Assembly (NCBI RefSeq): GCF_001756855.1 | Contig: NZ_MAYS01000142.1 | Location: 1 to 40,586, forward strand | Direction of reading: 5' to 3' | Origin: Candidatus Erwinia dacicola | GTDB taxonomy: Bacteria; Pseudomonadota; Gammaproteobacteria; Enterobacterales; Enterobacteriaceae | DNA: 40,586 nt | Shown here: in pieces, positions 30,685 through 31,721 of the stretch | Numbering within the stretch: position 1 is the stretch's first letter | How the letters are laid out: each line of letters begins with the position of its first letter | Made by a program: the position numbers and the translations under genes | Notes under the pieces: model-generated | The model's input: the letters and a program-made list of their open reading frames with translations, nothing else | The model's database searches: none | What the model was told of the DNA's origin: nothing

Positions 30685-31317
30685 ATGAGTATTTCTTCCA
30701 GGGTAAAAAGCAAAAGAATCCAGCTTGGTCTTAACCAGGCTGAGCTTGCGCAGAAGATTGGGACTTCTCAGCAATCAATTGAACAACTGGAAAATGGAAA
30801 GACCAAGCGACCAAGATTTTTACCGGAACTCGCTTCAGCTCTCGGAGTTAGCGTCGATTGGTTATTGAAAGGTTCGCCAGATTCAAACATAACTTATGTT
30901 GGGCCCAACGAACCTAAAGGAAAATATCCATTGATTAGCTTAGTTAGCGCTGGCGCGTGGTCAGAAGCTTGTGAGCCGTACAATCTCAAAGATATTGAGG
31001 AATGGTACGACAGTGATATTCATATGCTTGGTGATGGATTCTGGCTGCGTGTAGAGGGTGACTCTATGACGTCTCCGGTTGGACCGAGTATTCCAGAAGG
31101 TCACATTGTCTTGGTTGATACCGGCAGGGAAGCAGCAAACGGTAGCCTGGTTGTAGCAAAGCTTCTTGATGCGAACGAGGCGACATTTAAGAAGTTGGTA
31201 ATTGACGGCGGACAGAAATACCTAAAAGGACTCAACCCTTCATGGCCTATGATGCCTATTAATGGCAACTGCAAGATCATCGGTGTTGTGGTTGAGGCAA
31301 GGGTGAAGTTCATATGA
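30685..31317 (+). CDS. cI: CI (C2-type) prophage repressor
   Basis: 210 residues from the ATG at 30685 (AGAGGTGG ribosome site); the in-frame upstream part spans the operators. N-terminal helix-turn-helix ([20 protein letters not shown]), C-terminal S24 self-cleaving domain like P22 C2: cleavage site SLVSAGAW (Ala89-Gly90), Ser127 in GDSM, Lys159 in VVAKL, ending [15 protein letters not shown]. It keeps the prophage silent and is inactivated by RecA after DNA damage. Its stop overlaps the start of the next gene. Confidence 0.96.
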
Positions 31318-31721
31318 AGCGCATAGTGTTGGCAATCTCCATTATGTCGATTCCTCTCGCCTCTTATGCTGACTGTTGGATTGTATCTGGCCTCAAGGGT
31401 AAATCTGCATTTAGTCAGGATGGATATGATTTTATTGATGACTCAGTTTCTGGGTCAGCGTTCAAATTGCGGATTGATGGTGAAAAGGCATCAGTTACTA
31501 ATCTTGACGGATCTGCCGTATCAGACATGTCATATGTAGCCCTGACCGACAGCACAATAGTGGGAAGCTATCAGTCAGGTGGCGGAATAACGGTGGAAAC
31601 ATGGTCTGTCACAACAGACAAAAGGGTTATGTATTCCAAAGTAATGAACATCCCAGGATTTCAAAAGCTAACCTCAACTAAAGCATTCGTCGGAGTTGTA
31701 TCTGGCAACTGCGAAAAGTAG
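31314..31721 (+). CDS. Secreted protein translationally coupled to cI
   Basis: 135 residues. The ATG overlaps the cI stop (ATGA), so it should be made whenever repressor is made, that is in the lysogen. The first 19 residues ([19 protein letters not shown]) are a clear Sec signal peptide with cleavage before Asp20. The mature protein is beta-rich with two cysteines (Cys21 and Cys132) at its ends, fit for a disulfide in the periplasm. A strong terminator follows at 31745. No family recognised. A lysogenic-conversion or superinfection-exclusion role is my inference. Confidence 0.82.

Follow-up and report, generated by a model that had tools for sequence, protein, structure and literature searches.

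A prophage homologue of the phage 434 Hex protein, predicted to be exported and proposed to block the entry of superinfecting phages

Background

Phage 434 is a founding model of gene regulation. The Hex protein is expressed together with the repressor in lysogens of lambda imm434, where RT-PCR has placed cI and hex on a common PRM transcript (PMC3564112). Lambda imm434 lysogens that lack hex release about 30-fold more phage in a recA+ background but not in a recA- background, and a 6-kDa fragment that was made without the signal peptide (sHex) complements the defect about 7-fold. In vitro, sHex inhibits the RecA-stimulated cleavage of the 434 and P22 repressors, not that of lambda CI or LexA (PMC3564112). 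The same paper describes Hex as a 158-aa ORF that starts inside cI and reports Glu43 as the N-terminus of the 434 Hex fragment on the basis of mass spectrometry. Overexpression of full-length Hex was lethal, and why only the shorter fragment was obtained was left unexplained by the authors; in the deletion mutant the Hex coding sequence had been completely replaced (PMC3564112). PMC4848623 only cites the Hex paper. An older observation is that Salmonella lysogens of lambda imm434 exclude P22, whereas hex- lysogens do not (Susskind and Botstein, as cited in PMC3564112).

P22 itself has an entry-exclusion protein, SieA, which blocks DNA injection and against which escape changes are described in genes 16 and 20; sieA is carried by 22 of 66 P22-like phages (PMC10883804).

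The hex homologue of an Erwinia prophage

The window studied here is a stretch of 40,586 nt from Candidatus Erwinia dacicola (contig NZ_MAYS01000142.1). It represents a P22-like phage with gtrA, gtrB and gtrC-type genes, a tailspike, a gp16-type DNA transfer protein and an integrase; a check of all lengths between 1 and 399 nt found no exact direct terminal repeat on the contig. The O-antigen conversion genes gtrA, gtrB and gtrC-type (positions 1097-3833) make up a second envelope-changing unit of the prophage. The host assembly has 2.7 Mb in 607 contigs and is rated 99.75% complete, with four genomes of the same genus measuring 4.2-5.2 Mb; the genome may be reduced or the assembly incomplete.

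The gene of interest lies directly behind a cI gene of the 434 type (Table 1). Its reading frame is intact, with zero internal stops, and its start and the cI stop overlap by 4 nt within the sequence ATGA. The hairpin that follows (-12.9 kcal/mol) was matched in stability by none of 200 shuffles and carries a T tract; the terminator pattern scan by itself returned two matches against 1.6 +/- 1.4 in shuffles, which is not above chance. The operator of the 434 type, ACAANNNNNNTTGT (in the form taken from the Sf6 record), has five matches in the window against 0.75 expected, a number that one of 100 shuffles reaches. Four of the five lie at OR and OL and thereby flank the cI-hex unit, and the fifth falls inside the terminator stem.

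The encoded protein is 51.1% identical to 434 Hex (E 2e-37, 100% coverage) and 50% identical over its whole length to the product of Sf6 gene 38. It belongs to PHROG 2651, a family of function unknown, and has zero matches in Pfam and NCBIfam at the curated cut-off. Homology to Hex is near certain. In the 434 record the gene is annotated as 'repressor protection protein'; its name, hex, stands for heterologous exclusion. Judged by its sequence, the ORF is a real gene, because it shows 51% full-length identity to 434 Hex and a low dN/dS in the mature part. This ratio was 0.03-0.13 in the six closest of ten pairs and 0.21 and 0.24 in two distant pairs; for the other two of the ten no estimate was obtained, and the synonymous values in general run high, with some saturation. 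By this measure, close pairs show strong purifying selection on the mature protein.

The original prediction had described an unrecognised periplasmic protein, translationally coupled to the prophage repressor, placed like rex directly behind cI, closed by a terminator, and endowed with a clear signal peptide and a cysteine at each end of the mature part. The coupling, the placement, the terminator, the predicted signal peptide and the cysteines agree with the analysis; the word 'unrecognised' does not, since the family turns out to be that of Hex.

Table 1. Coordinates in the window of the hex homologue, its parts and its surroundings
Feature	Position	Strand	Basis
Cro-like regulator ORF	30367..30660	-	repressor-type PHROGs; 434 Cro in same place
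Two 434-type operator sites, OR side	30596..30631	.	motif matches
434-type cI repressor, 210 aa	30685..31317	+	86% identity to 434 cI
hex homologue, 135 aa	31314..31721	+	PHROG 2651 match, E 5.5e-39; 51% to 434 Hex
ATGA overlap, hex start / cI stop	31314..31317	+	sequence
Putative signal peptide of 19 codons, cleavage ahead of Asp20	31314..31370	+	n-h-c layout; -3 Ser / -1 Ala
Mature protein, predicted eight-stranded barrel-like beta structure	31371..31718	+	pLDDT 88.9, pTM 0.78
Codon of Cys21	31374..31376	+	Cys kept in 32/32 family rows
Codon of Cys133	31710..31712	+	near-end Cys kept in 31/32 family rows
Intrinsic terminator 3' of hex	31745..31788	+	hairpin fold z -4.43
Two 434-type operator sites, OL side	31802..31838	.	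motif matches

Predicted export and the published mechanism

The predicted signal peptide is of the Sec type. Directly behind it the mature protein begins with DCW, and Cys21 and Cys133 are the sole cysteines of the mature part. In all of the 20 family representatives a charged start leads into a hydrophobic core, position -3 is Ala, Ser or Val and position -1 is Ala or Ser, and the signal peptides of the 16 cI-linked members differ from one another at 70% of positions on average. When twelve distant rows are added to the representatives, each of the resulting 32 diverse rows has a hydrophobic N-terminus followed by a cysteine, and 31 have the near-end cysteine. Kept outside these 32 rows were two truncated relatives (L110 and L113), two that are near-identical to rows in the set (L008, the homologue of phage ST-35, which differs in its last residues and is without the final cysteine, and L076, with Tyr in place of the first cysteine) and the cut-short L087. 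In L087 (positions 6001-7653) hex is interrupted, its two parts lying about 1.2 kb apart. The mature protein is without a hydrophobic stretch, the highest 19-residue hydropathy of this part being 0.67 in the window protein.

The cut site predicted for the window protein corresponds to the residue at which the mass-spectrometry fragment of 434 Hex begins. Mapped on the 434 record, the Met of the ATGA overlap turns out to be residue 25 of the 158-aa ORF, and the Glu directly behind MIRIAALLSILLTTSANS to be residue 43; the observed N-terminus is therefore the signal-peptidase site that would be predicted from the sequence. This suggests that the published ORF hid the signal peptide of Hex. The main text of PMC3564112 contains none of the terms signal peptide, signal sequence, periplasm, secreted, export and leader peptide. 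Export of Hex is very likely, because the sequence, its conservation and the published N-terminus agree.

These observations bear on the published mechanism, according to which Hex acts in the cytoplasm and, by binding to a repressor of the 434 or P22 type, keeps it from RecA-stimulated autocleavage, so that no mistaken induction occurs. The increase in phage release upon loss of hex, with its dependence on recA, argues for such a role, as do the complementation by sHex and the specificity of this fragment for the 434 and P22 repressors. A conserved signal peptide would, however, take the protein out of the cytoplasm. Moreover, sHex (Glu43-Asn103, as delimited in PMC3564112) holds 61 of the 116 mature residues and is without the remaining 55 and the C-terminal cysteine. 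It thereby lacks the more conserved half: among the 16 cI-linked proteins, 8 of 63 columns are invariant inside sHex versus 23 of 57 beyond it. The fragment had also been precipitated with salt, dissolved in guanidine and refolded (PMC3564112). With regard to the genetic evidence, a deletion from the start of the 158-aa ORF, if so made, would also damage cI, cutting it from codon 186 of 210 on.

Distribution and genomic settings

Out of 50,697 phage records searched, 16 contain a relative of Hex. Thirteen of these, at 50-51% identity, come from phage 434, lambda imm434, Sf6, Sf101, HK446, HK633, Huey and Chlobot, and three, at 32%, from the Salmonella phages Emek (two records) and ST-35. The 434-type hex occurs in 202 of 5426 complete E. 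coli genomes, and a LexA-family repressor gene touches hex in all 12 E. coli rows examined, which are spread down the ranking of the 202. Profile and pattern searches of viral contigs yielded 138 relatives, from which 79 distinct loci were kept; two others were found in one genome collection. Relatives are present in 11 of 392 genomes of the family of the window's host and in 4 of 394 genomes of its order, with its own genome in both counts.

A repressor gene lies directly upstream in 85 of 93 sequences, a set that includes the window and the copy in its own genome (L002) and contains many near-identical members. In 74 of the 85 the start overlaps the cI stop, and in 11 the ORF was called from an earlier in-frame ATG inside cI, like that of the 2013 paper (PMC3564112); these 11 still span the cI stop. 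From the tree of the 32 rows it cannot be told whether the cI-linked members make up a single clade.

This pairing can be read in favour of repressor protection, the more so as hex is found directly behind cI in all 13 phage records with a cI 80-90% identical to that of the window, and as Emek and ST-35, which carry the homologue in the sieA slot, have a P22-type c2 at another place in their genomes. Against it, for some homologues no 434-type cI was found nearby. Distances between Hex proteins and between their cI partners were uncorrelated (16 pairs, Mantel r 0.06, P 0.32; against the C-terminal domain of cI, r 0.24, P 0.09), which is weak evidence of the absence of co-evolution since recombination could hide a correlation. 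Taken together, we consider it unlikely that guarding the repressor is the function of Hex.

Four genomic settings can be distinguished. The first is the position behind a 434-type cI. In the second, the homologue is found between gene 16 and mnt of P22-like phages, i.e. Emek, ST-35 and the loci L089-L092. P22 has the order 16-sieA-orf59a-mnt, with sieA in the very place taken by these homologues, and Emek has the order 16-hex-five other orfs-mnt. This setting also includes L105 (positions 7853-8646, genome G337), which carries two tandem Hex-like genes next to an mnt-like gene. The third setting is island-like, by an integrase or by Psu-like or D5-primase-like pieces (L018, L106). One relative resides on a Lelliottia plasmid, and another (L109) is surrounded by the endolysin, Q and terminase genes of a prophage. 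In the fourth setting, represented by two genomes of one genus (L111 and L112, around positions 8100-8760), the relative lies beside genes of a type VI secretion system (T6SS): it follows a PAAR gene in L111 and ankyrin and DKNYY genes in L112, and vipA/vipB or vipB comes next. For some further rows the neighbours gave no clear setting.

A place with PAAR or ankyrin/DKNYY genes ahead and vipA/vipB behind is a common one for immunity genes. The fourth setting may hint at an immunity-type inhibitor, a barrel that neutralises an enzyme delivered to the periplasm, be it a tail or ejection enzyme of a phage or a T6SS effector; T4 Spackle is a model for the binding and neutralisation of such an enzyme. 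The match of the gp16 relative beside the slot in L090 to a transglycosylase profile would also suit this reading. The T6SS-side rows are distant, however (26-28% identity, on a long tree branch), and we hold this candidate reading to be quite unlikely.

The sieA leader as a likely swap site

The ST-35 homologue is preceded by 312 nt that match the sequence upstream of P22 sieA base for base, and the two upstream regions agree at 99.3% over 703 nt, including the start codon. Both genes use the same GTG start, and the ORFs diverge right after it. The resemblance varies among the other members of this setting: of the last 34 leader bases, those in common with P22 sieA number 32 in Emek, 34 in L089 and only 12 in L090-L092. 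A scan found no promoter-like site before the Emek homologue; its leader still resembles that of sieA. Six further phage records (L120-L125) have 33 of the 34 bases before other short ORFs. SieA of the P22 type occurs in 41 phage records and Hex in 16, with none common to both. The homologues of Emek, ST-35 and L089 are inside the sieA slot; the window hex is outside it, i.e. not between gene 16 and gene 9.

When the last 22 nt of the sieA leader were scanned against viral contigs, at least 120 loci were retrieved (L126-L245), with at least 121 leaders and at least 117 complete ORFs. Among the matches listed, the ORFs, which mostly encode short proteins, fall into 12 families between which no similarity could be detected; at least 24 of the 117 ORFs listed are Hex-like and at least 8 are SieA. 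A strongly hydrophobic N-terminus is seen in 11 of the 12 families listed versus 2 of 28 control coding sequences (Fisher P 4e-7), the controls having been hand-picked by similar size from six annotated lambdoid loci, without hex and without the membrane protein SieB of 183 aa. One family of the 12 listed is without such an N-terminus. A homologue of gene 16 lies convergent within 400 nt at 35 of 81 leaders checked, and farther away or not found at the other 46. In one prophage contig (L174) two sieA leaders are present (positions 2351-2372 and 4116-4137); one of them precedes a 129-residue ORF, the other an ORF that is truncated where the contig ends.

The sieA leader is thus likely a swap site for what are likely exclusion genes in P22-like phages. 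As such it offers a handle for finding them, given that the 117 ORFs listed include at least ten families besides SieA and Hex. The names Emek and hex are both absent from the main text of PMC10883804. In the open-access literature searched, no paper was found that brings together Emek, sieA and P22-like phages, or that reports Hex export or a leader swap site.

Predicted fold

For the window protein AlphaFold predicts a mature domain that is all-beta and barrel-like (confidence values in Table 1), and for a relative in the sieA slot a similar strand order with nine strands listed (pLDDT 87.0). A Foldseek search of PDB and BFVD gave zero matches at E 0.001 or better, and the VIA-align rows for the window fold bring together various common small barrels, from which little can be concluded. 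Comparison with known small barrels such as the C-terminal part of NHBA and FABP did not yield a clear structural score. The family profile, compared with solved proteins including MliC-type lysozyme inhibitors and PagP, reached a best E of 0.14. Neither solved nor viral structures thus offer a convincing relative of the Hex fold.

The relative in phage Huey is annotated as PagP, an outer-membrane enzyme; this assignment was set aside, as it lacks profile support and an aromatic C-terminus. A C-terminal Phe, Trp or Tyr is the mark of outer-membrane barrels. Only one of the 32 family rows ends in such a residue. An envelope conversion or fitness factor (stress or lysozyme resistance, or a surface change) that has no anti-phage role is decidedly unlikely in our view: a small barrel that is predicted to be exported and encoded on the cI transcript, the PagP annotation and the presence of some relatives outside phages would suit it, but the profile finds no solved protein, aromatic C-termini are nearly absent, and the leader common to sieA, Hex-like genes and ORFs with a hydrophobic N-terminus points to exclusion.

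Proposed function

We propose, as a reading that we hold to be moderately probable, that the window protein is an exported Hex homologue that blocks the entry of superinfecting phages. In the lysogen it would be translated from the repressor-maintenance transcript, directed to export by the signal peptide and cut before Asp20. Once in the periplasm, the mature protein would fold as a small beta-barrel, its two ends probably linked by a disulfide between Cys21 and Cys133. From there it may block incoming phages at entry, the likely targets being the trans-periplasmic ejection proteins or the envelope-acting enzymes of P22-like particles; the blocked step would be the same as that blocked by SieA. 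Of the possible roles, an action on the entry of other phages has the best support, because in one case a homologue takes the place of a proven entry-exclusion gene, beginning at the start codon, and because 434 Hex excludes P22, while target and step are inferred. The suggestion of the original prediction that the protein could block DNA entry of related phages fits with both observations.

Several findings weigh against an entry block. It leaves unexplained the induction that follows loss of hex, about 30-fold and in recA+ only, and the biochemistry of sHex as published; the constant pairing of hex with a 434-type cI also fits a functional tie to the repressor; the window copy is outside the sieA slot, and some distant relatives are outside phages, at a T6SS locus. 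Both roles could be true, in which case one protein would act on two sides of a membrane.

In a more general form, the proposal is that Hex proteins are secreted entry-exclusion factors rather than cytoplasmic guardians of the repressor, that sHex is half of a processed barrel, and that Hex is one of at least a dozen interchangeable, nearly all envelope-bound, proteins behind the sieA leader, mostly uncharacterised exclusion systems. We would give this wider statement an even chance. What appears to be new here, as far as the open-access literature searched shows, is the identity of Glu43 with a signal-peptidase site, the family-wide signal peptide and cysteines, the replacement of sieA and the leader shared by 12 families. 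Should Hex be exported, its published mechanism would have to be looked at afresh, and the 'heterologous exclusion' of P22 described long ago could be put to a direct test as a block to entry in the periplasm.

Comparison with known systems

The window protein is most similar to Hex of 434 and lambda imm434 and to the product of Sf6 gene 38, with which it shares the 4-nt overlap with a 434-type cI, the signal peptide, both cysteines and the 434-type operators. It differs from 434 Hex in the sequence of its signal peptide and in half of its residues, and the published reading of 434 Hex has a longer ORF and a cytoplasmic mechanism. Lambda RexA and RexB are likewise encoded behind cI, co-expressed with it and associated with an exclusion phenotype. 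Rex acts from the cytoplasm and the inner membrane, and no Rex family is among the matches of the window protein in PHROG, Pfam and NCBIfam. T4 Spackle (gp61.3) is a periplasmic superinfection-exclusion protein that is helical and binds lysozyme, whereas Hex is predicted to be all-beta apart from its signal peptide; the two are set apart here by description.

Finally, no sequence relation was found between Hex and P22 SieA, and the latter is an inner-membrane protein with several predicted spans (PMC10883804), unlike mature Hex with its lack of a hydrophobic stretch. The likeness to SieA would be one of working: both would be envelope proteins expressed in the lysogen, and the Hex homologue of ST-35 has the slot, the leader and the start codon of SieA.
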